Origin: an uncultured Acidobacteriota bacterium
GTDB lineage: Bacteria > Acidobacteriota > UBA6911 > CAINFC01
Direction of reading: 5' to 3'
Length of the DNA stretch: 64,000 nucleotides
Assembly: GCA_903847975.1 (NCBI GenBank)
Contig: CAINFC010000036.1
Span: forward strand, 1-64,000
The notes beneath the pieces were generated by a model. That model searched no databases. It was not told the DNA's origin and saw nothing but the letters and a program-made list of their open reading frames with translations. This document shows, piece by piece, positions 2,586 through 33,146 of this stretch. Numbering within the stretch: the stretch's first letter is position 1; every line of letters starts with the position of its first letter. The translations under genes and the position numbers were made by a program.

Positions 2586-2597
2586 TGGCCATGCGCC

Positions 2598-3272: not shown

Positions 3273-3328
3273 AACGTACCCTTTCATGTAGGCATCCGGG
3301 GCCTGCCGGCCTCAAGTGCCTGAAGCAA

Positions 3329-3443: not shown

Positions 3444-3454
3444 AAGGAGATGGG

Positions 3455-4453: not shown

Positions 4454-4454
4454 G

Positions 4455-5441: not shown

Positions 5442-5442
5442 A

Positions 5443-6944: not shown

Positions 6945-6946
6945 TC

Positions 6947-9461: not shown

Positions 9462-10198
9462 CGAATCCTGCCGATCCCATGTTGCTCGTTCTGATTGGCG
9501 GCATCGCCTTTCTTTATGCGAGCGTCGGGCACGCCGGGGCTTCCGGCTATATTGCCGTGCTCAGCCTGGTGGGATGGACTCCGGCCCAGGTCCGCCCTGT
9601 GGTCTTGCTGTTGAATATCCTTGTGGCCGCGGTAGCGACGCTGAAGTTTTATCGGGCCGGGCATTTTCGACCGCGCCTGTTCCTACCTTTAGCCGCGCTC
9701 TCGGTCCCTGCCGCGGCTCTCGGCGGATACATGCCGATTCCAACGCTCTGGTTGTCCAGGTTTATCGGAGCGGTGCTTCTTTTTTCCGCCATTTGGCTTT
9801 CGATGGCCAAGCGGGAGCCTGAGGGAGTGGCCCCGCCCGGGAACAAGTCGGCTTTGACTGCCGGGGGGTTCATCGGCTTTCTGTCGGGATTGAGCGGTAC
9901 CGGGGGGGGAATCTTCCTGAGTCCGTTTATGCTTTATTTCCGCTGGGCTAAATTAAAAGAGATTTCAGCCATCGCCGCACCCTACATTCTTTTGAATTCG
10001 GCTGCCGGGCTCGTTGGAATGAATTTCAGTGGATTTACCCCCCCCAGCGGATGGTGGTTGTATGCCGGCACGGCGGTTCTTTGTGGAACGGCGGGAGCCG
10101 GCTACGGGACAAGAGTTCTAAATGTCCGAGTCATACAAGTGCTGCTTGCCTCGGTGCTCTCCATTGCAGCGGCGAAGCTGCTGCTTTTGGCCCACTGA
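9458..10198 (+). CDS. TauE/SafE (TSUP) membrane transporter
   Basis: Inner-membrane protein with seven or eight predicted hydrophobic helices. It belongs to the TauE/SafE family, whose characterised members move sulfite, sulfoacetate or other sulfur anions. Family marks are AFLYASVGHAGASGYIAVLSL at the N-terminus and its half-repeat GFLSGLSGTGGGIFLSPFMLY in the second half. The TTG start overlaps the moeB stop by four bases (RBS gaggga), making this the last gene of the Moco operon. A paralogue sits beside the second moeA (61059-61802). The repeated pairing suggests export of a sulfur product of the neighbouring sulfur-type molybdoenzymes, or transport linked to Moco sulfur chemistry. Neither is shown by the sequence. 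Confidence 0.9.
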   Translation: MTNPADPMLLVLIGGIAFLYASVGHAGASGYIAVLSLVGWTPAQVRPVVLLLNILVAAVATLKFYRAGHFRPRLFLPLAALSVPAAALGGYMPIPTLWLSRFIGAVLLFSAIWLSMAKREPEGVAPPGNKSALTAGGFIGFLSGLSGTGGGIFLSPFMLYFRWAKLKEISAIAAPYILLNSAAGLVGMNFSGFTPPSGWWLYAGTAVLCGTAGAGYGTRVLNVRVIQVLLASVLSIAAAKLLLLAH

Positions 10199-16608: not shown

Positions 16609-16893
16609 ATGAAAATTCCATTTACAAAACGTCTGATAATCGCATTATGGTTCTCTTTCCTTCTGGCCGTCAGCATCCTGGCGATTTCTTCTACACACTA
16701 CCGGCTCGACTGGTATACACCGCTGACCACCGGTGGCGGTGGTACCTCCAGTTCTGCCGGTTATACGGTCCAGTTCAGTGTCGGGCAGACGGCCACACAA
16801 CCTTCGACAAGCACACACTACAAGGTCGGGATGGGCTTCTGGTACGGCGAGACTCAGAACCCGAAACTCTACCTGCCCGTCATTGTTAAATAA
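16609..16893 (+). CDS. Small exported protein with C-terminal YLPVIVK tail
   Basis: 94 residues: a hydrophobic signal or anchor at 9-27 (LIIALWFSFLLAVSILAI), a central segment YRLDWYTPLTTGGGGTSSSA with FSVGQTATQP, and MGFWYGETQNP leading into the tail KLYLPVIVK. Similar short proteins are familiar from Chloroflexota, where they also end in a YLPLVxR/K tail (from memory, not searched). RBS taaggaac lies before the ATG. It follows the gene at 15286 on the same strand and may be co-transcribed. It converges with the glycosidase gene, leaving a 22-base gap. Function unknown. Confidence 0.72.
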   Translation: MKIPFTKRLIIALWFSFLLAVSILAISSTHYRLDWYTPLTTGGGGTSSSAGYTVQFSVGQTATQPSTSTHYKVGMGFWYGETQNPKLYLPVIVK

Positions 16894-16915
16894 CAGTCTC
16901 TTCCCGCCGCATCGG

Positions 16916-18979
16916 TCACGGTTCCGAGGAAAGGAACAGCAGCGCGGAGTTTCTCCCCCGCGGGAAAGAAACATCCAGGCCATGGCTATGCAGTTCGGCG
17001 GCGGCAACGGTCCGGTATCGGTCGCGATCGACATCTTCCACACGGAAGGTTCCCCGGCGGGAGAGGCCGGAAAGCGGTACTTTCGCTTCCAAGGACTCCT
17101 CGGATTCCCATCTCAGCAAAAGAATTCCGGCCCTGGTGCCGGCAGAATCGTAATAAACAACACCCGCCGCCGGTGTTGTATCGGACGGATAAATCACTTC
17201 ATACCGGCAATCGTTCTTTAAAACGTTCAGACGCCGATAATGGGCCAATTGCGCGAGAATGACATCTCTCTGCCGGTCTCCAATTCTGGCCAGATCGGCC
17301 GATAACCCCCAGGTGCCCGCCATCGCGCTGCGGCAATACGTTCGTGTAAATTCGTCATCGTCCGGATTATTCCGATCCGGATTATTGGTCCAGCGGTTGA
17401 CCGTCCAGGGAGGCAGAATGTGAAGTGCTCCCAGCGCTTCCAGAAAATTGCTTTTGGCATGGCCGGGGCCGGTACCTCCTCCGTCTCGAATCCACTGATT
17501 CTGGGTGATCAGCACGGTGAATTCATTGATCATGCGGCCGCCGCTCTGACAATTCTCCAGGTAAAGGTCCGGGTGGGCTTTGCGCACCGCCGCCAGAGCC
17601 GACTGCCATGCCAGGACGTTCTTCATCAAGCCGAAGCGGGATTGGGGGGCAAAGAAGTCCTGGTCATATTTCCACCAATCCATGGAATACCGGCTTCGCA
17701 AAAGGGCGGTGTGGTCGAGCAGAACCCGGCCCAGGTCCATCCCGGCATATTCGAGCAGGAATCCGTCGATGAACTTCCGGTAAAAAGGCGGTTGGACCGC
17801 GTTTGCAGGTAGATCCCGGGCATCCGCCTTTACAAATTGGGGGCAGGACCATAAACCGGCGCGTGTGCCGCCGGCTTTTACTTTGGCCAGGATGGTTTCG
17901 AATTGCCTGTCGCGGAACTTCGCCGTGTCCGGCGTCCATTGTCCCACGGCCTGATACCACCCCGCATCCACGATGAAAGCATCGAAGCCGTAAGGTTTCA
18001 TGCACTCCACTTGACGCTGCAGGAATTCCCCGTTGCATTGAAACCGTGCCGCGTACCAGTGGTTATAGGTGAAAGGGAAACTGGGGGCCGGTCCGCCATA
18101 GAGCTGGCGGCTGAGGGCCAGACGCTGTGCCATCCATTCCGCACGGCGGTCACGTTCTTCGGCCGCCCGTGTGGCTACTGCGGTAAGCACCGGCCCCTCT
18201 ACGGTCTCTCCGGGGGAGAGTGCCAACTGAGTCTCCTCCGGCGGCAAGTAAACATGGAACGAGAAGCTATTTCCTTCCGTGGCTTTCCCCAGCTGTGCTC
18301 TCCATCCTCCGCACCAGTCCAGGGAAAAATAAACAGCTGCCTTTTCACCGCCCCAGGCCCAATAGGGATTTTGCCCTTGCGGCGTGGCGTCTGAACTGTG
18401 CAGATGACTGCCCAGTTCGACTGTTTTCTTATCCGCGAGCAGTTCCGATTCGGGGTGGAAGGTCAACGCCTGCCAGTAATGGAGTTGTGTGGTCCGGCCG
18501 GAACCCTTCCAATTTCCATTCCACACCGGATACCAGGATATGGTTTTTCTGTCGGCTCCCGAATTCGTCAGACGCACGGAAGTGCGGAACAGGGAACCTT
18601 TGCGGAACAGATCCACTACCCATGTTATGCACAATCCATCCCTCAGGGGCCGGGTTGCTTCCGCACGAAAAAAGACCGGGTGGTCCACCTGCTTCCACGG
18701 GCCGGTCTGCCCGGAAGAGGCGAGCAAGTCCCGGGCTAACCAGGCATCCATTCCCTGTAATCGGTTCGCTTCCTCGAACAGCCTGTCCCCGGAATTCCAA
18801 CGGACCTCGGATATGAAGGGCACACCGTCCGGATTTACTTCCAGCCGCATGGTTACGGCCTCATTCTTCAGCGTCAAGCTTTGGCTCAATGCCGGGAGTA
18901 GCCCCGCCAGAAGGCAGATGACGAACCCGCTGATCCGCATGAAAACGAAAATACCGTATCGAATTTTGGCGCTCCGCAT
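16916..18979 (-). CDS. Secreted clan GH-D glycoside hydrolase (GH36/GH27-like alpha-galactosidase)
   Basis: Retaining glycosidase, probably acting on alpha-galactosides, exported to the periplasm or outside. An N-terminal beta-sandwich (residues about 25-290) precedes a TIM barrel. The barrel shows FDAFIVDAGWY, WKYDQDFF (the Asp of KYD is the expected nucleophile), LYLENCQSGGRMI and WIRDGGG (candidate acid/base region). A C-terminal beta domain follows. The start at 18979 was chosen for its gggag RBS and the signal peptide downstream (RISGFVICLLAGLLPALSQ); the frame is open to 19108. The length (about 687) fits GH36-type enzymes. It lies in a region with a sulfatase, GH97 and TonB receptor, which supports a glycan-breakdown role. 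The exact family number is uncertain. Confidence 0.82.
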   Translation of the reverse strand: MRSAKIRYGIFVFMRISGFVICLLAGLLPALSQSLTLKNEAVTMRLEVNPDGVPFISEVRWNSGDRLFEEANRLQGMDAWLARDLLASSGQTGPWKQVDHPVFFRAEATRPLRDGLCITWVVDLFRKGSLFRTSVRLTNSGADRKTISWYPVWNGNWKGSGRTTQLHYWQALTFHPESELLADKKTVELGSHLHSSDATPQGQNPYWAWGGEKAAVYFSLDWCGGWRAQLGKATEGNSFSFHVYLPPEETQLALSPGETVEGPVLTAVATRAAEERDRRAEWMAQRLALSRQLYGGPAPSFPFTYNHWYAARFQCNGEFLQRQVECMKPYGFDAFIVDAGWYQAVGQWTPDTAKFRDRQFETILAKVKAGGTRAGLWSCPQFVKADARDLPANAVQPPFYRKFIDGFLLEYAGMDLGRVLLDHTALLRSRYSMDWWKYDQDFFAPQSRFGLMKNVLAWQSALAAVRKAHPDLYLENCQSGGRMINEFTVLITQNQWIRDGGGTGPGHAKSNFLEALGALHILPPWTVNRWTNNPDRNNPDDDEFTRTYCRSAMAGTWGLSADLARIGDRQRDVILAQLAHYRRLNVLKNDCRYEVIYPSDTTPAAGVVYYDSAGTRAGILLLRWESEESLEAKVPLSGLSRRGTFRVEDVDRDRYRTVAAAELHSHGLDVSFPRGRNSALLFLSSEP

Positions 18980-19487
18980 AGTCGTTCTCCCTTCTCGTAT
19001 CCACATCGGCGGCGGCGGAAAAACCGGGATTATGGCGATCCTCTGTCGGAGGGCGCGCTGCCTGGGGCGGATTCCTTCCACACCCATCCATCGGCGGACC
19101 CGAACCAAGATTGTAGCTTCTGCACCCGTTAAAAATCATCTTATTTTGGTCGGGCCGACAGAAGGCATTCCGTCCGTTGTGGACCAGGCCGGGATTGGCG
19201 GGTGTATCCCCTTCCTCAATGAAAGCGAACTGCGGGTAAGCCTTCCCATGCGGTCCCGGGCACCGGGACAGGGGCATCGAGCCAGGCATCACCCTTTGGT
19301 TGTCGCTTCCGGCCTTACGGTTCCGCTTCGCCGGAGACGGCGCCCGCTATTCATTCGCAGAAAAAACAAGGCGCGATAACATGATTGGCTTTTGGGTTCC
19401 GGGATAACATGGAAGAAGCGTTATGTCCCGAACAACGGCAGGCTCTATCACCTGGGTGAAGCATCTTTTGCCAAAGGAGAGGCAATT
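18980..19487. other. Intergenic region between divergent glycosidase and kinase genes
   Basis: About 500 bases with no credible gene. ORFs here lack signal peptides, RBS or family motifs. It must carry the promoters of the glycosidase gene (leftward) and the kinase gene (rightward). The only clear signals are the two ribosome binding sites at its ends, gggag for the glycosidase and aaaggag (19474-19480) for the kinase. Confidence 0.4.
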
Positions 19488-21878
19488 ATGATCGGCGACG
19501 GTCGGATGGTATCTCAATACCGGATTCTCAGAAAGATCGGCCAGGGCGGAATGGGGGAAGTATACCTGGCAGAGGATACGCTTCTGAAGCGTCCGGTTGC
19601 CCTGAAATTCCTTTCCCCGGAAATGCAGAAGGAGTCCACGGCTCAAAAACGCCTGCTGCGCGAAGCCCGCTCCGCGGCGGCATTGGACCATCCTTTCATC
19701 TGCCATATCAATGAGATTGGCGAGGTGGACGGCCTGCCTTACATCGCCATGGAGTACGTGGAAGGCCAGACTCTGAAGGAGCGGTTATCGAAAGGGGCCA
19801 TGCCGCTCCCGGAAGCGCTGCAGGTTACCCGGGAGGTTGCCGAGGCCTTGACGGCTGCCCATGCCAAGGGAATCATCCACCGCGATATCAAACCGGCCAA
19901 TATCATGCTCACCCAATCGGGCCATGCCAAGGTGATGGATTTCGGACTTGCCAAGGCGGTCCTGCCCTCTTCCGAAGAAAGAGGAGAGGACGAAACGCTC
20001 ACCGAGCTGACGCAGCGTGGCATGGCGGTCGGGACTCTGGCCTATATGTCTCCGGAACAGCTGCGGGGAACTCCGGCCAGCGCGCAAAGCGACCTTTGGG
20101 CTCTGGGGGTGACCCTGTTCGAAATGATCTCCGGGTCCCGGCCGTTCCAGGGACAAAGCGGATTTGAATTGAGCTCTTCCATTTTGCACGATCCGCCGAG
20201 GACGCTGCCGGCCGGAACCTCTTCTGCAGTGCAGGAAATCATTGGGCGCTGCCTGGAGAAAGACCTTCCAAAGCGTTTCCAGCAGGCTGACGAAGTAGGG
20301 CAGGCCTTAGAGAGGATACAGTCCGGGGCCGGGGAAGTGCCGCCGGCACAGTTTCCTCGTCTGCGTAATGGCCCCCGGTTTGTCCGGGTGGCCGGCGGAC
20401 TGGCCCTCCTGGCTCTGGCCGGCGTTCTGCTGGCGGGATTCTACCTGGGTGGATGGCCGGATCGCCTGCTGGGTTTCCTCGCACAACCCAGGCTGCACTC
20501 CCTGGCCGTTCTGCCCATCGCCAACCTGTCCGGCGATGCCGAACAGGAATACTTTGCGGATGGGATGACCGAAGCGCTGATCACCTACCTGTCCAAAATC
20601 AGCGCCCTGCGGGTCATTTCCCGAAGGTCCGTCATGCAGTTTAAAGGCACCCGGCAAACCCTGCCGGAGATCGCCCGCACGTTGAACGTGGAGGCCATCC
20701 TGGCGGGATCGGTGGTCCGCGAAGCGAGCCGCGTGCGGGTGACCGCCCAGCTGATCGAAGCGAAAACCGAGCGGCCCTTGTGGGCCGAAAGTTATGAGCA
20801 TGAGCTGACCAGCATTCTGGCCCTGCAGAGCCAGATTGCCCGCTCGGTTGCCGGGATCATACGGGTTAAGCTCACGCCGGAGGAGGACGGCCATCTGGGC
20901 CGAACTCGCACTGTGAATCCTTCCACCTACGAAGCCTATCTGAAGGGGATGTCGCTGCTGAACAAGGGTACGCCGGCTGAAATCAAGAAGGGCCTGGGCT
21001 ACTTTCATGAAGCCGTAGAGAAGGATCCGGCCGATCCTCAGGCCTACGCCGGCCTGGCACTTGCCTATGTCGAGCTGGCCCACGGTGCGGAAGCAAGAGA
21101 AGACTCCCTGGTACGAGCCAGGGCGGCAGCCATGACCGCGCTCCGCCTGGACAGCACCGTGGCCGAGGCCTTTGCCGCCAAAGCCATGGTGGAAGGGTAT
21201 TTCAAGTGGAATTGGGAGGAGGCTTTCCGGGACTTCGATCGCGCGCTCACGCTGAATCCCAGCCTTTCGATCGCCTATTATCATCGGGCCTGGTTTCATA
21301 TCCTCTTCGGAAGGTTGGACCAGGGGGAGGAGGATCAGAAGAGAGCCCTGGAATTGAATCCGCTCGACTACGTGCAGGTTTCTCATCTGGCCCTTCTTTA
21401 CTCCTGGCAGCGGCGATGGGACGATGCGACAGTCGAAGCCCAGAAAGCGATCGAGATGGCTCCCCGGTTCCCCCTGGGCTATGCTTTCCTGGCCGAAATC
21501 TATCGGGGCAAGGGCATGCTGCCGGAGGCTTTGCAGACCGCGCAGCAGGCGGGAGAGCTTTCCCGTGCCTGGTACTGGGCGATCGGCCCCATATTTTCGG
21601 CCGCGGGCCGGAAAGAAGAAGCGCGCCAACTGCTCGATGAGTTGAACCGGCAGAAACCGTCGCCCTGGCTTGCTTTCTGGCAGGTTCATGCCTGTGCGGC
21701 CTCCGGGAATATAGAGGATGCATTCCGCTGGCTCGCTTACCGTCCGCACCATGCCTGGCTCCCCTGGATCAGGGTCTGGCCGAACCTGGAGACCTTGCAA
21801 CGGGATCCCCGTTTTTCCGCCGCTCTGCAGAAAATGAACCTGCCGCCCATCAAAGAACCGCCTTCCGGTGCACCATGA
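19488..21878 (+). CDS. Ser/Thr protein kinase with TolB-like and TPR sensor region
   Basis: Membrane-bound PknB-type kinase, 796 residues. Kinase domain (residues 11-280): GQGGMGEVYL loop, catalytic Lys40 in VALK, HRDIKPANIM (131-140), DFGLA (151-155), and SPEQLRGTP in place of APE. Residues about 300-321 are a single membrane helix. Then comes a TolB/FlgO-like domain (LAVLPIANLSGD, YFADGMTEALITYL, GSVVREASRVRVTAQLI) and at least five TPRs to the end. Such kinase-TolB-TPR chains are typical of Acidobacteriota. The C-terminal part would lie in the periplasm and could sense partners there. The start at 19488 is set by RBS aaaggag (19474-19480); two earlier in-frame starts lack one. No obvious substrate gene is adjacent. 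Confidence 0.92.
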   Translation: MIGDGRMVSQYRILRKIGQGGMGEVYLAEDTLLKRPVALKFLSPEMQKESTAQKRLLREARSAAALDHPFICHINEIGEVDGLPYIAMEYVEGQTLKERLSKGAMPLPEALQVTREVAEALTAAHAKGIIHRDIKPANIMLTQSGHAKVMDFGLAKAVLPSSEERGEDETLTELTQRGMAVGTLAYMSPEQLRGTPASAQSDLWALGVTLFEMISGSRPFQGQSGFELSSSILHDPPRTLPAGTSSAVQEIIGRCLEKDLPKRFQQADEVGQALERIQSGAGEVPPAQFPRLRNGPRFVRVAGGLALLALAGVLLAGFYLGGWPDRLLGFLAQPRLHSLAVLPIANLSGDAEQEYFADGMTEALITYLSKISALRVISRRSVMQFKGTRQTLPEIARTLNVEAILAGSVVREASRVRVTAQLIEAKTERPLWAESYEHELTSILALQSQIARSVAGIIRVKLTPEEDGHLGRTRTVNPSTYEAYLKGMSLLNKGTPAEIKKGLGYFHEAVEKDPADPQAYAGLALAYVELAHGAEAREDSLVRARAAAMTALRLDSTVAEAFAAKAMVEGYFKWNWEEAFRDFDRALTLNPSLSIAYYHRAWFHILFGRLDQGEEDQKRALELNPLDYVQVSHLALLYSWQRRWDDATVEAQKAIEMAPRFPLGYAFLAEIYRGKGMLPEALQTAQQAGELSRAWYWAIGPIFSAAGRKEEARQLLDELNRQKPSPWLAFWQVHACAASGNIEDAFRWLAYRPHHAWLPWIRVWPNLETLQRDPRFSAALQKMNLPPIKEPPSGAP

Positions 21879-22008
21879 GAACGCCGGAACCGGGAAGGGG
21901 CGCGGTGCAGGCAGATTCCCTTATACGGCGGGCACCCAGACGATGGCTGGATTTTTTTATGACAGTTCAGGCGGAATGCCCTTGGCTTTCTTCGCAATAA
22001 GTTTGAGG

Positions 22009-22304
22009 CTTTCTACCGGGCGATCACAGCGGATGGCCCGGCAAAAAGTTAAACACCTGTGGATCTCCGTTGGGAAAGCCCTGAAAGGGCTTCGTAACAC
22101 AGCCCGCGGTTGGCGCGCTTCGCGCCTACCCCGGGTAAGGACACCGTTAGGCGTCAACCCTGAAAGGGTTGCGCAAAATCCAGCGATGGCAGGTGGTTGC
22201 GCAGCGCTTTCAGGGCTGGGTTATAAACAAATCCGCCTACCCGGGGTAGCGCCTATGCGGCGCAACCCCGGGCTGTGATCCGGAACCCCTATTGGGGTTC
22301 CAGA
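22009..22304. repeat. 296-bp hairpin-rich tandem repeat, unit 1
   Basis: First of two nearly identical 296-bp units placed head to tail. Each unit is a string of hairpins: gccct-gaa-agggc, a long GC-rich cccggggt..ggcgcg/cgcgcc..accccggg stem, caaccct-gaa-agggttg, cccggggtagcgcc/ggcgcaaccccggg and ggaacccc-tatt-ggggttcc. The junction motif is ctttctaccgggcgatcac...gatggcccggcaaaaagtt. ORFs that run through it are artefacts of the repeat. Related single copies lie at 53.0 and 60.7 kb. It contains no transposase. Confidence 0.9.
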
Positions 22305-22600
22305 CTTTCTACCGGGCGATCACAGCGGATGGCCCGGCAAAAAGTTACACACCTGTGGATCTCCGTTGGGAAAGCCCTGAAAGGGCTTCGTAACACAGCC
22401 CGGGGTTGGCGCGCTTCGCGCCTACCCCGGGTAAGGACACCGTTAGGCGTCAACCCTGAAAGGGTTGCGCAAAATCCGGCTATGGCAGGTGGTTGCGCAG
22501 CGCTTTCAGGGCTGGGTTATAAACAAATCCGCCTACCCGGGGTAGCGCCTATGCGGCGCAACCCCGTGCTGTGATCCGGAACCCCTATTGGGGTTCCAGA
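22305..22600. repeat. 296-bp hairpin-rich tandem repeat, unit 2
   Basis: Second unit, differing from unit 1 at about five positions (for example aaacacc/acacacc and cgcggt/ggggtt). The start of a third unit follows at 22601 (ctttctaccgggccatc) and stops after about 15 bases, so the array ends within the junction motif. The near identity shows a recent duplication or active homogenisation. Confidence 0.9.
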
Positions 22601-22757
22601 CTTTCTACCGGGCCATCATTACAGATTTTCGCGAACTTATCGAAGCGGTCTTCAACCCACCCGGAAATCGGTGAGGCTTTGGGGGCTGTAAGGGAAGATA
22701 GGTGCCTGCGATTCGTTCCGCCCCATACGATCCAAATGGAGGATTCCCTGGAAGGGC

Positions 22758-22988
22758 TTAACGGCAAATAAGCGGGAGGTAATTCTGGTGGAGTGGCATA
22801 TCGGTCAACAGACCGCTGGCACCCAGTATGGCCGCTTTTTGATTAAGGGTTATTGCCGCGCTTTCACGGAAAAAAGTGCGGGCAAGATTGGCGGAGGCGA
22901 CAGGCGGCCGGGGCCATAGCGCCATACCCAGGCACACGAGCAGAACTAAACTGACAAGGGTGCAACGAGAGGCCAGGACAGTTTTCAT
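22758..22988 (-). CDS. Tiny exported protein with C-terminal NYLPLICR tail
   Basis: 76 residues: a signal peptide (LVSLVLLVCLGMALWP, cleavage near VASA), a short mature part of about 40 residues and the tail QNYLPLICR. The tail matches four other exported proteins of this window. Its ATG overlaps the last bases of the upstream gene by four bases, a sign of translational coupling, so it is probably a real gene despite its size. Function unknown; the mature part is too short for an enzyme and could be a peptide or a small anchor. Confidence 0.6.
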   Translation of the reverse strand: MKTVLASRCTLVSLVLLVCLGMALWPRPPVASANLARTFFRESAAITLNQKAAILGASGLLTDMPLHQNYLPLICR

Positions 22989-23446
22989 GGCAGCGTTGTC
23001 AGCCAGGTGATCTGGCGGCAGTCAGAGACATTGCAGTTGACCGGGTTACTGGCCGAGTCGCTGTAAAACCGGATACTGATCTGTTTGTTCAAAGCATAGG
23101 CTGTATTGAGCAGCACCAGAAAACGATTGGCGGTGGCAGCATGCAGGCTATCGGTGGGGAAAGCGAAATAATAGACGTAGTTCGCGCCAACTGTCGTGCT
23201 GTTCGTGCAACGGACGTGGATACGGTCTTCGAACACACTCACATCGCCGATCGTGCAGGTTGTAGATGCGAAGGAGGCACTGGAATCAGAGCCGGAAGCG
23301 AGTGCCCGACTGGAAACACCTGTCGGTTTGTTAGCCTCAGCGCTCCGCGCCCCGGCTTGCGGGAAAACAGTTGCCAGCAGCACTCCGGCAACGCACAAGA
23401 GAAGCAGAGCTATAATATGGACCTGGAAAGGACAATTTCGGAACAT
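22985..23446 (-). CDS. Exported protein of unknown function
   Basis: About 153 residues from the ATG at 23446 (ggggaaaatc before it); a GTG at 23482 would add 12. The signal peptide is FQVHIIALLLLCVAGVLLAT. The mature part has four Cys in two pairs (CTIGDVSVFEDRIHVRC and CNVSDCRQITW) and beta-strand-like text (VYYFAFPTDSLHAATANRF). The module resembles short domains in other exported proteins that describe single-stranded beta structure, but I cannot name it. It overlaps the gene at 22758-22988 by four bases, so the two form an operon. Divergent from the large secreted protein at 23639. Confidence 0.65.
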   Translation of the reverse strand: MFRNCPFQVHIIALLLLCVAGVLLATVFPQAGARSAEANKPTGVSSRALASGSDSSASFASTTCTIGDVSVFEDRIHVRCTNSTTVGANYVYYFAFPTDSLHAATANRFLVLLNTAYALNKQISIRFYSDSASNPVNCNVSDCRQITWLTTLP

Positions 23447-23558
23447 GATTTTCCCCACAAAGAAAGGCAACCCGTTTCCCACATCTACTTATTGCCTGAA
23501 AAGTATACGACTCCGCGAAAGCAAAATCAAGTGCAGCGCCTGACGAAAATACTTTTCC

Positions 23559-23628
23559 CTTGACGCCCGTGATTACTTCGCGTACCTTCTTTCTCTGAGG
23601 TGGCTCTCCTCGTGAATGAACTGTTCCT
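23559..23628 (+). promoter_or_regulatory. Shared 5' element, copy 2
   Basis: Same layout as 14988-15056: cttgacgcccg, the identical block ttacttcgcgtacctt (23573-23588), a pyrimidine run, then gtgaatgaactgttcc, which parallels gtgattaatttgttc in copy 1. It lies directly upstream of the large secreted protein. Here the G-rich stretch (gaggtgg) could act as the RBS for the GTG at 23612. Confidence 0.5.
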
Positions 23629-23638
23629 TGAAAAAATC

Positions 23639-26600
23639 ATGAAACCCTGTCGGACCTGGAAGAAAATCGTGCTGGCCCGGATGGCCTGGCTTGTGGTCCC
23701 TCTTCTGGCCCTTGGGTCGGTGACGTTGGACGGCAGGCTGCGCACCGCCGGCCGGCGCTCTGGCGTAACGTCCGAGCGCGGGCCGGCGCGGTCGGGCGAG
23801 GCTCCGCCGACCCGCACCGCGCTGCGCGATCTGGATGTCGCGCTTCAGTACCGGATCTCCGCGGAGCACGGACGAGACATCCCTGCGTTTCACTTTCGGC
23901 AAAGAGCAGGAGAATACACGGCGGACCGGTTCGCCCCCGGGTTGACGGCTGCCGTGGGTGCCGGCGAAACGACGTTTCGTGCCGGGTCTTCGCATTGGTC
24001 CCTCCACCTGGCAGGTATTAACAATGCCCGGGCGGGCATTGCCTTCCGCCGCCGGGAAGCGTTCGCTCGAGCCGAGGTGGCGGGCAATCGCCTGGAGCTG
24101 GGGGACGGGATGATCACCGAGTGGTACGTCAACGGACCCGGTGGGTTCCAGCAGGGCTGGACGATTGCGGAGCGGATGGGAGGGGTTCGGGGGGAACTCC
24201 GACTGGCTCTGAATTTCGCGGGAAATCTCACCCCGCGCGTGGTGGACGAGGGGCGCGGCCTCGCGCTGCGCAACCGGACCGGCAGAGAAGCCTTCTCCCT
24301 TCGAGGGCTTTTGGCCTACGACGCCGGTGGCAAGGAGCTACCCGTTCGATTCGAGTACGGGCGCTCTCTGGCGATTCGCCTCGACGACCGGGATGCGCAA
24401 TACCCGATCGTCATCGATCCCTGGGCCCAGGTCGCGGAGCTTTCCGCGTCGGACAAGGCGGCAGACGACTACCTCTCCCGGGCGGTGGCGGTGAGTGCCG
24501 ACGGGTCGACCGTGGTGGCCGGTGCCGGCTACGAAGATCCCGAGGGCGTCACCAATGCGGGCTCCCTATACGTATTTGTCAGGAACGGAAGCTGGGCGAC
24601 CGGGACCCAGACCGCCAAGCTCTTCCGGACGGGGAAAGCCACGAACGATAGCCTGCCCAACTCGGTGGCCGTTAGCGCCGACGGTGCGACCATCGTGGCG
24701 GGGGGGGCTTCCATTGACGGTGGGACGACCGATGCGGGGGCGTTGGTGGTCTTCGAAAGACTGACCGGCTGGACCGATGGTTCGGGGAACCAGACGGCGC
24801 TGCTGACGGCCTCGGATCCCAAATTCGGCGGCTATCTCGGCTGGTCGGTGGCCATTTCCTCGGATGGCTCGACGATTGTGGGAGGGGCCAGCCATGCCAA
24901 TGGCGATGCAGCCGACTCGGGTGCCCTGTACGTCTACCTCAAAGGCACAGGATGGTCCTCCAGGACGCAGGACTACAAGCTCACGGCATCCGGCGGTTTG
25001 GTCAACGACTACCTGGGCACATCGGTGGGGATGGATCCGGAAGGAGCGACGATTGCGGGCGGGGCCTATGTTGCCGAGGGGGCTTCGGGCCTCGTCAACT
25101 CCGGCGCCGTGTACGTGTACGAGAAGGGAACTGCCTGGGCCAACGGCTCTGCCAGCCAGACGGCGAAGCTCTCGCACTCCGATGCGGCCATCGAGGACTG
25201 GTTCAGCAACGATCAGCCGGGATCCATCGGAGTCTCGAGCGGCGGCGCCACGATCGTGGTGGCTGCCTACAAAAAGAACGCGGTTTACGTATTCGAAAAA
25301 GGAGACGGCTGGACCAGCCGAACCGAAAGCTACAAGCTGACTTCCACCGACGGGGCCGCACTCCAGGCCTCGGCCATCCGCGCCGACGGAAACAGGATCG
25401 CGGCGGGCGCCCCCTCGAGCGCCGCTCTCTACATTTTCGACAAGGGAACCGGCTGGGCCAATGGCTCGAGCAAGCAGACCCAGAAGCTCGCCGGCACCGG
25501 ATCGATGGGTTACAACGTGGGGGTCGCCTCCGGCGAGGATACGGCCGTTTCCGGGGCCTGGCTGGCCACCGTCGGCGGTGTCACCAATGCCGGTGCCGCC
25601 GAGGTGTTTCAGCTCCTGTCCGCGCCGGGCACGCAAGCCACCAACGTGACCTTCAGCAATGTCGGCCAGACGCAAATGCAGATCGACTGGGCCAACGGAA
25701 GCGGAGCCAAACGCGCCGTATTTGTAAAGCAGACGACCACAGGCTCGGCAAGTCCGGTCGACAGCACGACCTACGCCTGCGATGCGAGATTCACGATGGG
25801 GGCCCAGGCCGGGACGGGGTGGTATTGCGTCTACAACGGCACGGGCACCACGGTCACCGTGACCTGGCTCAATGCCAACACCACGTACCGAACGATGGTA
25901 ACCGAGTACAACGGCATCGCCGCCAACGAGCTGTACAACACCAGCACGGCGACCAACAACCCGAACAATCAAACCACGCTTCCCATCGTGAGCAAGCCCA
26001 CCGTGACGACCGAAGCGGCGACGGGCCTCCTGGCGACCAGCGCCACGGGCAACGGCACCATCACGGCCACCGGTGGCGCCAACGCGACTAACCGCGGGGT
26101 CATTTGGTGTCCGTACCCCTGCTCCAGCCTGACAATCGGCGGAACCAACGTGACCAATGTCAGCGAGATCGGCGATTTCGGGACGGGCTCCTTCACGGCC
26201 AGCCTGATTTCGCTGTCGGCCAATGTTCGCTATGTCGCCCAGGCCCATGCCACCAACTCCGCGGGAACGAACTACGGTTCGCAGGTCGAGTTCTGGACCG
26301 CCGCCCAGGTGCCTGCGGCCCCGACCGTGGGCGGCGCGACCGCCAGCACGTTGAACGTGGCGGTCAATGCCAACGGCAACCCCACCAGCACGGTGTTTTG
26401 CATCCACGAAACCGGCACCGGCAATTACGTTCAGTCCGGTGGCACGCTGGGCGGTTCGTGTGTCTGGCAAACGGCGGCCATTTGGGGCAACAAGACCGTC
26501 ACGGGCCTGACGCTCGGCACCCCCTATACGTTTGAAGTCAAGGCCCGAAACGGGGCGAGCGTCGAGACCGCTTACGGGGTGAGCGCCTCGGGCACGCCGA

Positions 26601-27865
26601 TCGTACCGCCAGGGGTCACCACCGAGGCGGCAGCGTCCATCACCCCCACGAGCGCTGTCGGCAACGGCACCATCACCTCCACCGGCGGCGCAAACGCAAC
26701 CGCCCGCGGTCTGGTCTATTACGCCTACACCGACACGGACAAAGTCATCGGCAACGCCGGGGTCACCAGCGTCTCCGAGAGCGGCAGTTTCGGCACGGGT
26801 GCTTTCACCGTGTCGCTGACCCCCCTCGGGGTGAACACGCAGTACAATGCCCGCGCCTGGGCCACTTCACCCGCCGGTACGGGCTACGGTTCCCGGGTGG
26901 CCTTCTGGACCCTGGCCAACGCGCCGGCGGCTCCGACGGTCGATCACGCCACGACGACGACGCTGGATGTGGCGGTCAACGTCAACAGCAACCCGTCCGG
27001 TACGGAGTTCTGCATCCAGGAGACCGGCACCGGCAAGTATGTCCAGGCGGATGGGACCCTGGGAGCGGCGGCCGTCTGGCAGAGTGCCGCCGCCTGGGGG
27101 ACGAAAACCGTGACCGGTCTGACGGCGGGGACGACCTATACCTTCCAGGTCAAGGCACGCAATGGCGGTTCAACGGAGACCGCCTACGGTCCGACGGCTT
27201 CAGGTATAACGAATGCCGCACCCACCGTGACGACCCAGGCGGCCGGCAGCATCACCGCCACTGCGGCCACCGGCAACGGCACCATCAGTGCCACGAACGG
27301 CGACCATGCCACCGGACGCGGAGTGATTTATTATGCCTACACCGACACGGACAAAGTCATCGGCGACGCCGGGGTCACCAGCGTTTCCGAGAGCGGCAGC
27401 TTCGGCACAGGTGCTTTCACCGCGTCCCTGACCCCTCTGGGGGTGAACACGCAGTACAATGCCCGCGCCTGGGCCACTTCACCCGGCGGTACGGGTTACG
27501 GTTCGCGGGTGGCGTTCTGGACCCTGGCCAACGTGCCGGCGGCGCCGACGGTCGATACCACGACAGCGATGATGTTCGAAGTGGTGGTCCATGTCGAAGT
27601 CAACGGTAATCCGGCGGGTACGGAGTTCTGCATCCAGGAGACCGGCACCGGTCATTATGTCCAGGCGGACGGGACCCTGGGAGCGGCGGCCGTCTGGCAG
27701 ATCGCAGCCGTCTGGGGGGCGAAAACCCTGACCGGCCTGACGAGGGGGAGGACCTATACGTTCCAGGTGAAGGCCCGCAATGGCGAATACACAGAAACGG
27801 CTTTCGGTCCTCCGGCAACCAAAACCCTTCCTTTTCAGCTGATACTGATGCCGATCTATAAATAA
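23639..27865 (+). CDS. Large secreted FG-GAP/Fn3-like repeat protein with MPIYK tail
   Basis: About 1408 residues. The ATG at 23639 opens a signal peptide (KKIVLARMAWLVVPLLALG); the GTG at 23612, with gaggtg upstream, would add nine residues. Residues about 30-270 are a unique head. Residues about 275-680 hold roughly seven FG-GAP-like propeller blades (SADGSTVVAGAG, SSDGSTIVGGAS and similar). The rest is a series of fibronectin-III-like modules alternating two types, such as TATGNGTI.ATGG and APTV..A....LNVAVN.N.NP with VTGLT.GT.YTF.VKARNG. The last modules are almost identical in DNA, so they duplicated recently. The tail is LILMPIYK. Probably a cell-surface or adhesion protein; no enzyme motif. 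It is divergent from the small exported gene pair. Confidence 0.85.
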   Translation: MKPCRTWKKIVLARMAWLVVPLLALGSVTLDGRLRTAGRRSGVTSERGPARSGEAPPTRTALRDLDVALQYRISAEHGRDIPAFHFRQRAGEYTADRFAPGLTAAVGAGETTFRAGSSHWSLHLAGINNARAGIAFRRREAFARAEVAGNRLELGDGMITEWYVNGPGGFQQGWTIAERMGGVRGELRLALNFAGNLTPRVVDEGRGLALRNRTGREAFSLRGLLAYDAGGKELPVRFEYGRSLAIRLDDRDAQYPIVIDPWAQVAELSASDKAADDYLSRAVAVSADGSTVVAGAGYEDPEGVTNAGSLYVFVRNGSWATGTQTAKLFRTGKATNDSLPNSVAVSADGATIVAGGASIDGGTTDAGALVVFERLTGWTDGSGNQTALLTASDPKFGGYLGWSVAISSDGSTIVGGASHANGDAADSGALYVYLKGTGWSSRTQDYKLTASGGLVNDYLGTSVGMDPEGATIAGGAYVAEGASGLVNSGAVYVYEKGTAWANGSASQTAKLSHSDAAIEDWFSNDQPGSIGVSSGGATIVVAAYKKNAVYVFEKGDGWTSRTESYKLTSTDGAALQASAIRADGNRIAAGAPSSAALYIFDKGTGWANGSSKQTQKLAGTGSMGYNVGVASGEDTAVSGAWLATVGGVTNAGAAEVFQLLSAPGTQATNVTFSNVGQTQMQIDWANGSGAKRAVFVKQTTTGSASPVDSTTYACDARFTMGAQAGTGWYCVYNGTGTTVTVTWLNANTTYRTMVTEYNGIAANELYNTSTATNNPNNQTTLPIVSKPTVTTEAATGLLATSATGNGTITATGGANATNRGVIWCPYPCSSLTIGGTNVTNVSEIGDFGTGSFTASLISLSANVRYVAQAHATNSAGTNYGSQVEFWTAAQVPAAPTVGGATASTLNVAVNANGNPTSTVFCIHETGTGNYVQSGGTLGGSCVWQTAAIWGNKTVTGLTLGTPYTFEVKARNGASVETAYGVSASGTPIVPPGVTTEAAASITPTSAVGNGTITSTGGANATARGLVYYAYTDTDKVIGNAGVTSVSESGSFGTGAFTVSLTPLGVNTQYNARAWATSPAGTGYGSRVAFWTLANAPAAPTVDHATTTTLDVAVNVNSNPSGTEFCIQETGTGKYVQADGTLGAAAVWQSAAAWGTKTVTGLTAGTTYTFQVKARNGGSTETAYGPTASGITNAAPTVTTQAAGSITATAATGNGTISATNGDHATGRGVIYYAYTDTDKVIGDAGVTSVSESGSFGTGAFTASLTPLGVNTQYNARAWATSPGGTGYGSRVAFWTLANVPAAPTVDTTTAMMFEVVVHVEVNGNPAGTEFCIQETGTGHYVQADGTLGAAAVWQIAAVWGAKTLTGLTRGRTYTFQVKARNGEYTETAFGPPATKTLPFQLILMPIYK

Positions 27866-28259
27866 GCCCCGTCAGCAAAAGGTTCAGGTCAGAGGGGCTT
27901 GTGCCATGGAACGGTGAGCGACGGGCCTCCGGATTGTTTGTCGAAATAATGACTGCCTCCCGCATTCCCTTTCTCCGGCGTGGGAAGTCCGGGAGACCGG
28001 GGGGATACTCCTTGATACCTGTGTCCTGAACTCGGTTGCCCTCCGGCCACAGGGCAGGTCAGCTGGAGAGCAGGCCTGCAAAGCTCACCGGGAAAGCTTT
28101 TCGTGAGACGGGGAATTATGTCAAAATACCTGTCTCTGATTTCCAGGCAAGAGCATAGGATACGTTACCTCTTGTTTTGTTCGTTGATTCCATCCGAGTA
28201 TCTGGCTTCGCTCGGCTGCTGTCCGGAGCGGATCACTCCCAACGGCTGGCCGGGCCTGG

Positions 28260-28700
28260 ACATCGGTCTTTTTTCGTGCCGAACTGTTGCATGCCCTGGG
28301 CATATTGCCCTCGAGCCTGGAAATCCTCTCCGGGATCCTGTCGACGGTCGGTCTCTCCGGCGAGTTCCTGGAGGACGCCGCCTCTAACGGCGTGCCCCCG
28401 GGCATCTGCTTCTTTCACCAGCTGTTCATCGGGCTGGCCGGCAGCGGATATTTCGCGCCGCCGAAACTGGTGGCCGCCAGCTCCCTGCTCTGCGATGGAA
28501 ACCTGGAGTCGTTTTCCCGGGCCGCCCGGGAAGCCGGGGTCGAGTTCTTCTACCTCGATGTCCCCTACCGCGAGGATCGTGATGCGGTGGCCTATTGGAG
28601 GGAACAGTTCGTCGACCTGGCCGCTGGTCTTCTCCGGAAGATGCCCGCCGGCAAGGATCATCCTCGCGGCTGTTCTTCCCGAAAGCTGTCTTCCCACGCC
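28260..28700 (+). pseudogene. Remnant of a 2-hydroxyacyl-CoA dehydratase-type (HgdB/BcrB-like) subunit
   Basis: The frame reads FFRAELLHALGILPSSLEI, then GICFFHQLFIGLAGSGYF, APPKLVAASSLLCDGN and VEFFYLDVPYREDRDAVAYW. This matches the first third of the HgdB/BcrB/FldB family: the P.EL..A.G..P start, the C-FH and LCDG cysteines that hold the cluster, and the DVP...YW segment. After about 28690 the reading becomes meaningless in this frame and another frame takes over briefly. Full members are about 370-430 residues, so this is a truncated and probably frameshifted remnant. No convincing start codon or RBS. The family call is from motif memory. Confidence 0.4.
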
Positions 28701-28809
28701 GGGAGGCTCCTGTGGATGCATATCGTTCCCAGTACGATACCATGCTCCGGGACATGCCGGATGACGAAAGGAGGGCCAGGATCGGCTGCGAAGAATATGC
28801 CGCACCCTA

Positions 28810-30405
28810 TTATTTTCGGATGAGCGGCAGAAAGGTATAGGTGGGCGGGGTATAGAGGATCTTCACCGAAGCTCCAACCAGATCCCCCGGTCCAGGCGGA
28901 ACAGGCAGGGTGGAAACCGGCAGCTCATAGATAAAAAAATAAGCATATTGGGTGTTATCGATCGTATGGGTTGCAGGATCATCCGCCTTGATGATTTCAT
29001 AGGAGTACCCGGCGGTGTACGTGCTCTCGCCGTGAGCCAGGTAATGAAAGGTGTTGCCGAACTTGCGCACCAGGGAAGCATATCCTGCGGCGGGAAACGA
29101 GGATCGATTGAAAAACTCGGGCAGTATGTAGGTAACGCGGGCGCCCTGGGGCAGGTAAACCGGCGCGAAGTAGAAACCATTCGCGGTGCCGCCTGCGGCG
29201 TTGCTAAAGCGATGCACGACCCATTGCCCGTTGTTCAGGAAATAGTAGCGGTTGGTCAGCGGCGTAAACTCTGCGGTGGACAGGGACAGGATCCGCGTCG
29301 TTTTTTCGATCAGAGCCTCCGTTGCCTTGGGTCCGTCGGCGGCGGCAGGTGTTCGGTCTGAGGCGGCGCGGAACGCGGGCAGCGTATACTGAGCGATGGC
29401 CCCGTAAGCGAACAGATCGCCGCTGATGCTTTCATTGGGATGGCGCAGTTCGAGCCAGTAGGAATAAGTCAGGTTGTCGACGACGGTTCCTCCGGAAGGG
29501 ATCGCGAAGTTTTGGCCCTGGGCGGCCCCGGAATTCAGGCTCTGCACCGTGGCTAACACGTCGTGGACGGTATAGTCCTGGTTGGCACGATGCAGGGACA
29601 GCGATAGGGATGCGGAGGGGTGCGTATCGATATAGCGCAAGGTCAGCCGGGTCAAAACCGCCCCATCCGGGAAGTTCAACCCTGCCACATAACATCCGGT
29701 TCCGACCGGGCCACCATAGCAATCCCCGTTCACATGTTCCAGGTGGGAAGAAGCTTTGTTCCAGGAATAACCGATTGCCTCCGGCTTGAAGCCGGAGGCC
29801 GGAACGGACAGAATCCCGGTGTTAACGGCGGGCGGAGTGTAGTGGATGGTCACGCCGCAACCCCACGCCCGGGTGCCGGCGCTATGAGTGGATGGCGGAA
29901 GGTGCAGTTCGAGCCAGTAAACCGAGGCGAGGTTATTGATAAGCGGGTCGGTAATGCTGGAGTCTGTGGTGATAAAATAGTTGCTGCCGACTCCCGTGGG
30001 AGGGGAAACGGCCATTTCCACTCGTTGGTGGCTCAGGTCCGAACGTACCAGGTTGGTACTGGATAGACTGTTGGAATAATCCTGGAAGAAGCAGAAATCC
30101 ACCTTTTTAACGACCGCGCCATGAGGCAAATTCACCGGGGCGTAATAGACGCCGTCCGCATAGGAAGCGTCCATATGTGCCAGGTAGTTGCCGTAATTTT
30201 CGTAATCGTAAAGGTCGTCGGCAGGTACGAAGGCCGCCGGCGGGACTGCCAGGTATTCGGTCCCGGGGGCCGCCGGTGCGGCCGGCCCGTTCCGGTCAGG
30301 AAAATCTGCGTCCGCCCGTGCCACCGATAAGGGCGCGGTCATAAGAAAGCCGCAGACCAGAATGGCTGCCATACGATCCAGCCGATCCATGGGCCGTTTT
30401 TTCAT
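28810..30405 (-). CDS. Secreted three-repeat beta protein with FLPLIRK tail
   Basis: About 531 residues. The start at 30405 is set by gggag and a signal peptide (MAAILVCGFLMTAPLSVARA); the frame extends to 30525 without support. The mature protein has three related domains of about 150 residues. Each holds a phrase such as YYAPVNLPHGAVVKKVDFCF, VAGLNFPDGAVLTRLTLRY or YFAPVYLPQGARVTYILPEF, and each ends in a YWLEL.LP or YFFIYELP strand and a YTPP strand. The tail is TYTFLPLIRK. No catalytic motif. A role in surface binding or as an appendage is possible. Function unknown. Confidence 0.75.
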   Translation of the reverse strand: MKKRPMDRLDRMAAILVCGFLMTAPLSVARADADFPDRNGPAAPAAPGTEYLAVPPAAFVPADDLYDYENYGNYLAHMDASYADGVYYAPVNLPHGAVVKKVDFCFFQDYSNSLSSTNLVRSDLSHQRVEMAVSPPTGVGSNYFITTDSSITDPLINNLASVYWLELHLPPSTHSAGTRAWGCGVTIHYTPPAVNTGILSVPASGFKPEAIGYSWNKASSHLEHVNGDCYGGPVGTGCYVAGLNFPDGAVLTRLTLRYIDTHPSASLSLSLHRANQDYTVHDVLATVQSLNSGAAQGQNFAIPSGGTVVDNLTYSYWLELRHPNESISGDLFAYGAIAQYTLPAFRAASDRTPAAADGPKATEALIEKTTRILSLSTAEFTPLTNRYYFLNNGQWVVHRFSNAAGGTANGFYFAPVYLPQGARVTYILPEFFNRSSFPAAGYASLVRKFGNTFHYLAHGESTYTAGYSYEIIKADDPATHTIDNTQYAYFFIYELPVSTLPVPPGPGDLVGASVKILYTPPTYTFLPLIRK

Positions 30406-30744
30406 TTTGGATCTCCCATTTCCATTTTCATATCTTACCGTAAAACGTACCAGAACCGCTACAATGTCGGCATGCTTTGGAGACACTCCTGGAAGCGCGT
30501 TGGCTTTTCGAGTAGCATCATTCAATGAATTTTTCGACGGATCCCGTGGTCATTGGTCCAAGAGAAGGCAAGCCCTCCACCAGAGAGGTGGTCCGGGAGA
30601 CGGCGGCGATGGCCGGATACGCGCTGCGCCTGACTTTCCAAGGGATTGCGCGGGTCATCTTGCCGACACCTTATTGGGTTATCATTGGAGCGGGACTATC
30701 ATCCGGAGTCAAATCAAGCCTGCCAAGGAGGGAATTTAAACCAT

Positions 30745-31854
30745 ATGTCCCATACGACCAACCTCGCCCACATTTCGCTTAGGCTGTTCCTTGGGTTCAT
30801 GGCGATCCGGTTATGGGATGCCGGAGCCCTGGCACAGGAAAACTTACCGGCGGTGTCTCTTGCCAATGAGCGGATCGAGTTGACCATCCGTCTCCAGGGA
30901 GGCGCTTTTTCCGGGATCGGATTACGCGACGGCCCGGAAAGTCTCAACCCCCTCGCCGCCATGGGTCATTTTTTGTGCCTGGACGGTTTCGGTCAGCCTT
31001 CTCCGGAAGAGAAGGCGGCCGGCATGCCCTTTCATGGCGAGGCTTCGCGACAAAAATGGACTGCTTCTGCCGAACGGTCCGACGGCAATGCCCGCTCGGT
31101 TTCTCTTCGCTGCTCCCTTCCATTGGCGCAGGAGTCTTTTTCCCGAACACTTGAGATCGTCGATGGAGAAAGCATCGTTTATGTCAAAAGCCAGCTCGAA
31201 AGCTGGATAGGAGTGGATCGCCCGGTTTCCTGGGCGGAGCATGCCACTCTTGGGCCACCCTTTCTTGAGAAGGGCGAGGTGGTTGTGGACATGCCCGCAA
31301 CCCGGTGTCGGGTGCGCGCCGAGAAGCCCGGCCCGATTCCAGGACGCCTGATCTACCTTCAGGAATTCCTCTGGCCTATGGCTCCTGTAAAGGAAGGCGG
31401 AGAAGCGGATTTACGTCTCATCCCGGATCGGAAATTCCTGGATCTGGCCACTTGCCGGATCGATCCCCAAAGAAAGCTGGGCTTTGTGACCGCCCTTCAA
31501 CTTAAGAGGCGTCTGCTTTTCGGGTATCTGTTCCGCCGAGAGGAGTATCCCTGGCTGATGAGTTGGATGAACTATACCGGTGACGCCCGGGCCGCGCGCG
31601 GAATGGAGTTCTCCACCCAGCCATTTGACATTTCGCGGCGTGAGACGGTAGAAGCCAATCCCATGTTCGGATCGCCGACTTTCCGCTGGCTGCCTGCCAA
31701 ATCCAAAATCAGCTCGAGCTTCCTGCTCTTCTATACCCCGGTACCGGCAGGGTTCTCGAGAGTGGATGAAATCACATGGAGGGAAGGGAAACTCGTGATC
31801 GAAGATCATTCCTCAGGAACCACCATCGTTCTCTCCGCATCCCGGCCGCTCTGA
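30745..31854 (+). CDS. Exported aldose-epimerase-like beta-supersandwich protein
   Basis: About 369 residues with a signal peptide (LRLFLGFMAIRLWDAGALAQ). The start is the ATG at 30745, after aaggaggg; the frame reaches back to 30646. The mature part reads like a galactose-mutarotase-like supersandwich: VSLANERIELTIRLQGGAF at its start, WAEHATLGPPFLEKGEVVVD (an H-x-T/P-x-G-type segment) near the middle, then YLFRREEYPWLMSWMNY. These proteins bind sugars and may be epimerases or non-catalytic sugar-binding domains. The exact activity is not certain. It lies in the glycan region and converges with the lectin-like gene. Confidence 0.65.
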   Translation: MSHTTNLAHISLRLFLGFMAIRLWDAGALAQENLPAVSLANERIELTIRLQGGAFSGIGLRDGPESLNPLAAMGHFLCLDGFGQPSPEEKAAGMPFHGEASRQKWTASAERSDGNARSVSLRCSLPLAQESFSRTLEIVDGESIVYVKSQLESWIGVDRPVSWAEHATLGPPFLEKGEVVVDMPATRCRVRAEKPGPIPGRLIYLQEFLWPMAPVKEGGEADLRLIPDRKFLDLATCRIDPQRKLGFVTALQLKRRLLFGYLFRREEYPWLMSWMNYTGDARAARGMEFSTQPFDISRRETVEANPMFGSPTFRWLPAKSKISSSFLLFYTPVPAGFSRVDEITWREGKLVIEDHSSGTTIVLSASRPL

Positions 31855-31895
31855 CACAAAAAAACGGTAACGATGGGAAATTGCCTGTCCCTTGC

Positions 31896-33146
31896 TCACC
31901 GGGTCATCACCGGTAGGAAGACTCGGCTGGCGGTTTCCAGGTTGTGATGCAGAGCGCCATCGCTGCCCACCGCGAATATTTCCAGGCTTCCATCCAGATT
32001 GCGGGCCACCGCCAGCTGATTGGTCAGACTGGCGCCGGCCGGTTTGCCGAGGTTCGACCACAGGCCCCAGCTGCTGCTGGGCGCCGTTTGAACGATGTGC
32101 CACAGCAGGCCGTCGCTGCCCAGCACAAATAACGCCATTCTTCCGCTGCTTTGAAGGCCCACGACCGGGTCACTGCCGGAAAATGAGGTGAACAGCACGG
32201 TCCCCAGACTGGCCCAACCGCTCCAGAATGAATTCGGAGCCACCTGCCATTTGTGCCAGATGCCACCGTCGTCGCCGCTGGCAAACAGCTCCAGGCGTCC
32301 ATCCTGGTTCTGGCTGACAACGGGGGAGCCAAGACGGACGCCGTTCGGCTTGCCCATCCCTACCCAGCCGCTCCATCCACCGTTGGGAGCCGTTTGATAA
32401 TTCAAGTAGATTTCATAGTTGCTGCCCCGCACAAATATTGCCTGGCTCCCGTTCTGCTGCCGGCTGGCGCACAGGATCGGATCGATAGAAATTCCGCCTG
32501 GCATCCCCATGCTGGACCAACTTCCCCAGCTGCCGTTGGCTGCAACTTGGGCTTTTCGCCAGACGTTGCCATCGCTTCCCTTGACGAAAATTTCCAGCCG
32601 GCCATCCTGGTTGCGACCGGCATATGGGCCATTGGCGTCAATGCAGCTGGAGGCGGAAATGGTCTCCATGGAAGCCCAACTATTCCAGCCATTATTGATA
32701 GCGGTTTGGCCGATATGTTCGATGTCGTAGTGCGGACCCGGGCACGGTCCGCCTTTCGCAACCTTCAGGCTCTGGGCGAACACCTCCAGTCGTCCATCCT
32801 GGTTCCATCCGACGGATGGCGCCGCTTGGGCGTCGCTTGAGCCAAGGGCATTCCAGTTGCTGAGAAACCAGGTTCCCGGTAGCCATTGGAAAATCTGGTA
32901 AATACTCAGATACGGCCAGCTCCCTAAACCCCGCACCTGGGCAAATATTTCCAGGCGTCCATCCTGATTCTGGCCGATTACCGGCCATTCCACAGTGCCC
33001 CCGGTCGGTTTCCCGAGACTATACCATCCGCTCCAGGCAACAGCTTCTAAAGAAGCGGCAGGGGAGGCCGACAGAGCCCCGTAGTGCATGAGCATGCCAG
33101 CCACCAGAAGCAGAGCACACCCGGTTGAAATGCCTCTGAGCCACAT
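31896..33146 (-). CDS. Secreted PLL-like beta-propeller lectin with FLPVMTR tail
   Basis: About 416 residues from the ATG at 33146 (aagga before it); the longer frame to 33374 lacks an RBS. After a signal peptide (GCALLLVAGMLMHYGALSA) come about seven copies of a roughly 50-residue blade: W.GW.SLG.P.G with Q.QDGRLEIFA.G.DG..WH (for example VIGQNQDGRLEIFAQ, GRNQDGRLEIFVK, QNQDGRLELFASG). This is the PLL/DUF346-type propeller of bacterial fucose/glycan lectins. The tail is SRVFLPVMTR. Probably a surface lectin for host or matrix glycans; the ligand is unknown. Confidence 0.82.
   Translation of the reverse strand: MWLRGISTGCALLLVAGMLMHYGALSASPAASLEAVAWSGWYSLGKPTGGTVEWPVIGQNQDGRLEIFAQVRGLGSWPYLSIYQIFQWLPGTWFLSNWNALGSSDAQAAPSVGWNQDGRLEVFAQSLKVAKGGPCPGPHYDIEHIGQTAINNGWNSWASMETISASSCIDANGPYAGRNQDGRLEIFVKGSDGNVWRKAQVAANGSWGSWSSMGMPGGISIDPILCASRQQNGSQAIFVRGSNYEIYLNYQTAPNGGWSGWVGMGKPNGVRLGSPVVSQNQDGRLELFASGDDGGIWHKWQVAPNSFWSGWASLGTVLFTSFSGSDPVVGLQSSGRMALFVLGSDGLLWHIVQTAPSSSWGLWSNLGKPAGASLTNQLAVARNLDGSLEIFAVGSDGALHHNLETASRVFLPVMTR

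Follow-up and report, generated by a model that had tools for sequence, protein, structure and literature searches.

PEP-CTERM, GlyGly-CTERM and MYXO-CTERM signals are tripartite, combining a motif, a transmembrane helix and a basic cluster, and a T9SS signal comprises an entire Ig-like domain of 70 to 100 residues or so. PEP-CTERM/exosortase, GlyGly-CTERM/rhombosortase and MYXO-CTERM/myxosortase are systems with C-terminal addresses on exported proteins (PMC1569441, PMC3237569, PMC11980579). A much shorter C-terminal element is listed in NCBIfam under two models, NF050076 (sort_motif_YLP) and NF053834 (ultrashort_CTERM), both named "YLP-box putative sorting motif." Literature searches for the YLP-box or its sequence returned no relevant paper.

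We analyzed a tail of this kind in an uncultured Acidobacteriota bacterium (assembly GCA_903847975.1). Like the PEP-, GlyGly- and MYXO-CTERM signals, it is carried by many unrelated Sec-exported bodies, has a basic end and is patchily distributed; unlike them, it has no transmembrane helix, and none of the tails of this genome shows the tripartite arrangement. It resembles a T9SS signal in being C-terminal, in lacking a membrane helix and in residing on Sec-exported proteins, but it is a short tail rather than a whole domain, and the genome encodes no SprA translocon. With LPxTG it shares an L-P core, but it lacks T-G and a membrane segment. Nothing hydrophobic follows the motif, and the tails do not show the LPxTG, membrane helix and basic tail of sortase substrates.

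Results

Five genes in the window encode proteins with the tail

The window, which is the whole 64,000-nucleotide stretch analyzed (positions 1 to 64,000 of contig CAINFC010000036.1), contains five genes whose products end in the tail or a loose variant of it, and one internal copy of the motif:

16609-16893, plus strand: small exported protein of 94 amino acids ending KLYLPVIVK (tail and stop, 16870-16893)
22758-22988, minus strand: tiny exported protein of 76 amino acids ending NYLPLICR (tail and stop, 22758-22781)
23612-27865, plus strand: FG-GAP/Fn3 protein (Pfam FG-GAP_2 and fn3) ending QLILMPIYK, a loose tail variant
28810-30405, minus strand: exported repeat protein of 531 amino acids ending YTFLPLIRK (tail and stop, 28810-28833)
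31896-33146, minus strand: beta-propeller lectin-like exported protein of 416 amino acids ending RVFLPVMTR (tail and stop, 31896-31919)
48952-48969, plus strand: internal FLPLIK, residues 127-132 of the protein encoded at 48574-52059, after its N-terminal domain; not C-terminal and not counted as a tail

The first-pass annotation had described five secreted proteins with a shared ending, the third a looser match. All five are open reading frames with the endings it gave (YLPVIVK, YLPLICR, ILMPIYK, FLPLIRK and FLPVMTR), and the internal copy that it noted in the 48574 protein was confirmed as FLPLIKSG, at residue 127. The strict motif, [YF]LP[LVI][IVM]x[KR]-stop, is exact in four of the five tails, ILMPIYK being loose. 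A sixth tail, YLPMVLR, ends a protein encoded just beyond the window on the same contig (75442-77115).

The 16609 protein, one of the two tiny proteins that the first-pass annotation saw as possible minimal substrates, belongs to a small protein family, with relatives bearing the same tail on another contig of this genome (C50) and in Chloroflexota (loci L207 and L210); its structure model was poor (pLDDT of 54), and no use was made of it. The start codon of the 22758-22988 gene overlaps the stop codon of the upstream open reading frame at 22985-23482, also on the minus strand. The repeat protein at 28810-30405 has no match to any Pfam or NCBIfam family, and the match of the 31896-33146 protein to the NCBIfam family beta_propeller_lectin is weak and under the cut-off.

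Other features of the window were also recorded. A tandem direct repeat of two adjacent 296-nucleotide copies, 97% identical, occupies 22001-22592, in the gap between a kinase gene and the 22758 gene. Comparison of translations by eye found similar molybdenum-cofactor-type and membrane gene sets at both ends (2079-10198 and 57985-64130), with paired MoaA-like genes (3455/63132), LVEWYPLW endings (6687/61833) and TauE-like genes (9479/61059), as if a molybdenum-cofactor-type cluster had been duplicated. The predicted protein at 2079-2585 begins MATNSNVYLPLIQ, with a YLPLI word at its N terminus (the start codon is uncertain), and ends in NDCRQCHR, which contains CxxCH.

The tail is enriched at the C termini of exported proteins

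Across the genome, the tail-stop pattern gave 34 DNA matches versus 3 for a reversed-pattern control. About 29 contigs have tails, among them the one that carries atpD. For a proteome-level test, genes were called on 1.58 Mb of the 8.13-Mb genome (26 contigs, 960 genes), a sample chosen partly around tails, so that the fraction of tailed proteins is biased upward; exported and other proteins were compared on the same contigs, with no obvious bias. Signal peptides were called by a simple home-made rule, under which individual calls may err.

In this sample, strict tails ended 23 of 432 genes whose products may have a signal peptide, versus 5 of 512 others (Fisher, 7e-5), and loose tails ended 41 of 432 versus 7 of 512 (Fisher, 6e-9). 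When the last 15 residues of the 432 signal-peptide proteins were shuffled, strict tails arose at a mean of 0.01 with a maximum of 1, compared to the 23 observed. Among exported proteins the motif occurs at the C terminus at a rate of 5.3% per protein and internally at 2.2e-5 per position, which makes the seven-mer ~2,400 times rarer per position inside these proteins than at their ends. Of the five internal cases, three are within one or two residues of the end, and a few tails run on for another residue or two (KND, RP, SRD endings), so the exact end is not required. These data confirm that the shared C-terminal tail is real and not due to chance; both enrichments anticipated at the outset, over shuffled ends and over nonexported proteins, were found.

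The tail consists of five or six hydrophobic residues followed by K or R, a composition that would suit direct insertion into, or adhesion to, a membrane through a hydrophobic patch and a positive charge at the end, without the help of a protein partner. We consider such a mechanism very improbable: some seven residues are too short to span a membrane, L-P is held at fixed positions although composition alone needs no L-P, and shuffling abolishes strict tails.

Tail genes are often adjacent, with three in a row on one contig (C21, 8032-19370; locus L068) and further cases on contigs C118, C148, C180 and C252. On contig C79 (loci L051 to L061), 72,000 bases read as N, and genes there are invisible.

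The tail is appended to unrelated protein bodies

By BLAST, the 47 tail proteins in the 1.58-Mb sample form no fewer than 30 body families, in agreement with the earlier impression of unrelated bodies under a common tail. They include clostripain (C11) peptidases with TIG repeats, sulfatase-modifying-factor-like proteins, beta-helices, DUF5650 repeats, propellers and Fn3/FG-GAP proteins. The tail outscored the preceding 15 residues in 12 of 12 related pairs, which overlap and are not independent, so that the P value is indicative only.

Many of these bodies are beta-rich (TIG, Fn3, BACON-like domains, propellers) and the motif is strand-like, as would be expected if the tail were the final strand or terminus of a shared structural domain and its similarity came from shared folds. 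The first-pass annotation had named this as one outcome that would overturn its proposal, and the C11 peptidases argue against it. Three C11 proteins of this genome and several from Chloroflexota align through to the tail, whereas in tailless relatives from Acidobacteriota of the same class (L263 and L269) the sequence terminates with the catalytic domain, before the linker; the tailed proteins have an extra linker of ~20 residues and the tail beyond the domain edge. In an AlphaFold2 model of the C11 part of a protein of this genome, the last helix spans residues 394-405, and the linker and tail that follow (411-435) are modeled at low confidence (pLDDT of <50), beyond the last folded element. 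The C11 alignments, the tailless relatives, the model and the unrelated bodies, with enzymes such as clostripain and sulfatase-modifying-factor-like proteins among them, together indicate that the tail is an appended element rather than a strand of a shared domain. A terminal-strand explanation is largely refuted, and we give it hardly any weight.

Choice-of-anchor domains Z, Q and X scored above the cut-off in five tail proteins; the name "choice-of-anchor" refers to variable C-terminal anchors.

The tail probably corresponds to the YLP-box of NCBIfam

The first-pass annotation had called the tail undescribed and knew of no named system for it, which proved incorrect, since NCBIfam lists the YLP-box and a scan of tail peptides hit both of its models. 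These models have only 10 to 11 positions, and HMMER filters drop models this short, leaving most tails of this genome unscored; the filters are also the most likely reason why full-length tail proteins gave no match to NF050076 or NF053834. Two of seven tails of this genome, scored singly, exceeded the 10-bit cut-off of NF053834 (11.8 and 14.5), and none exceeded the 15-bit cut-off of NF050076 (best, 12.9). Three Chloroflexota tails scored singly passed both cut-offs. A doubled-tail query scored 20.2 and 18.6, values that are not comparable with those of single copies. The tails of this genome share position and consensus with both models and, like the YLP-box, lie at the very C terminus of exported proteins; they differ from NF050076 in often ending in K and in scoring singly under its cut-off.

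The tail occurs mainly in Chloroflexota

Scanning 84,980 named species with a stricter DNA pattern yielded 62 stretches, 55 of them labeled Chloroflexota, in support of the link to Chloroflexota that the first-pass annotation had made. The other seven end open reading frames of 8 to 44 codons with no detected signal peptide and are most likely chance matches. In 14 Chloroflexota-labeled genomes, picked because of a hit, there were 247 matches versus 29 for the control. A genome counted as strongly enriched from 8 matches upward, provided that these were three times the control. By this measure about 10 of 201 sampled Chloroflexota were strongly enriched, most of the rest being at control level, and no other genome reached enrichment among 297 sampled from the phylum of the host or among 38 from its class. 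By AtpD identity the genome belongs with Acidobacteria bacterium OLB17, whose AtpD is 83% identical to that of one member of the phylum and 72-75% to those of most others, the other phyla compared reaching 70% at most. The YLP tail, mainly a Chloroflexota trait, is thus isolated in what is most likely an Acidobacteriota lineage.

The C11 body of this genome is closest to Chloroflexota proteins (E value of 1e-90, 42%), those of its class being far more distant (best E value, 5e-18). This affinity of the tailed clostripains suggests that at least the clostripain-type substrate family was acquired horizontally.

The isolation of the genome in its class and the Chloroflexota affinity of its clostripains would also fit tails that are functionless passengers on horizontally acquired proteins, or that lie on contaminating contigs. 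Contamination was rejected as the source: the genome is rated 1.82% contaminated, the atpD contig itself carries a tail, and the tetranucleotide signatures of long tail contigs match that of the atpD contig (0.90-0.95, versus 0.51-0.58 for Chloroflexota). The shorter tail contigs mostly resemble 20-kb pieces of contig C6. Tails are, moreover, still conserved between diverged paralogues of this genome. Both versions of this explanation are weakened, and we regard their combined likelihood as close to negligible.

Exosortase, SprA and sortase do not track the tail

Exosortase is present in this genome and in four of the six class relatives examined, but all 15 tail-rich Chloroflexota searched lack it, and it was rejected as the partner because of this absence. 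SprA of the T9SS was found neither in this genome nor in 14 tail-rich Chloroflexota, with both Bacteroidota controls positive, which led us to reject the T9SS as the tail machinery.

The L-P of the tail recalls the LPxTG box, and sortases occur in all 15 tail-rich Chloroflexota (two to five each) and once in this genome, as they would if a sortase cleaved or joined at the L-P and attached the proteins covalently to the envelope. However, sortases are also found in 9 of 13 tail-poor Chloroflexota and in three of six tailless class relatives. In a tree of a subset of copies, the sortase of this genome groups with those of its tailless Acidobacteriota classmates (100/96) and not with Chloroflexota, and no single clade covers all tail-rich genomes. 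The missing T-G and membrane segment also argue against such a reaction. The co-occurring sortase-like gene that the first-pass annotation proposed to look for therefore does not track the tail; sortase was rejected as a co-inherited partner, and we judge covalent attachment by sortase at the tail to be improbable. That the native sortase was co-opted as the tail reader is a possibility.

No non-tail family recurred in the tail neighborhoods of 55 Chloroflexota loci, and no partner family recurred in those of this genome. A family resembling TonB-dependent outer-membrane proteins had 8 of its 18 members near tails in this genome, a weak association.

The main rival to sorting is a role in stability or folding, in which the tail would shield the C terminus from tail-specific proteases of the envelope or bind an envelope chaperone. 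A very short element at the extreme C terminus of many exported proteins would serve this role well, and no co-distributed sorting enzyme was found. The scattered occurrence (strong enrichment in about 10 of 201 Chloroflexota and in one Acidobacteriota) and the choice-of-anchor context are nevertheless more in keeping with a dedicated pathway than with a general need, and we consider a stability role unlikely.

Discussion

We propose that the YLP-box is probably a C-terminal sorting or anchoring signal read by a partner outside the cytoplasm, at home mainly in Chloroflexota and acquired by this Acidobacteriota lineage. A seven-residue tail, [YF]-L-P-[LVI]-[VIL]-x-[KR]-COOH, ends Sec-exported proteins, often after a linker. 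After Sec export it would be recognized outside the cytoplasm as a free C-terminal peptide on that linker, and the reader, a putative receptor or transpeptidase, would sort or anchor the protein at the cell envelope. This lineage may have acquired the system with at least one substrate family, the clostripain-type peptidases, and now appears to carry the tail on many bodies.

The C-terminal restriction, export association, body independence and distribution of the tail are direct results. In favor of sorting we count, besides these, the choice-of-anchor domains Z, Q and X in tail proteins and the independent NCBIfam label of "putative sorting motif"; against it we count the lack of a partner gene, the endings with extra residues and the single internal motif copy in the window (the 48574 protein). 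Of the initial proposal, a sorting role stands as the best reading of the tail; we infer recognition by a putative partner, with sorting or anchoring as its probable outcome.

The tail is already catalogued as a putative motif. What is new is that it occurs in isolation outside Chloroflexota, that T9SS and exosortase are excluded as its machinery and that the case for sortase in this role is weakened. More tentatively, the tail may be an exceptionally short address (some seven residues, with no membrane helix), used by a putative enzyme or receptor that operates in Chloroflexota and, once transferred, also in a bacterium of a different phylum, whose envelope is probably unlike theirs.

In some Chloroflexota and in this lineage, a single genome has dozens of exported proteins labeled in this way. 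As the genome is alone in its phylum, it offers a strong contrast for phylogenetic profiling: a partner gene is expected to be shared by this genome with tail-rich Chloroflexota and should be missing from the tailless classmates, which brings the search for the machinery within reach of a direct test. The tail is also a practical marker of secreted or surface proteins in organisms most of which are uncultured.
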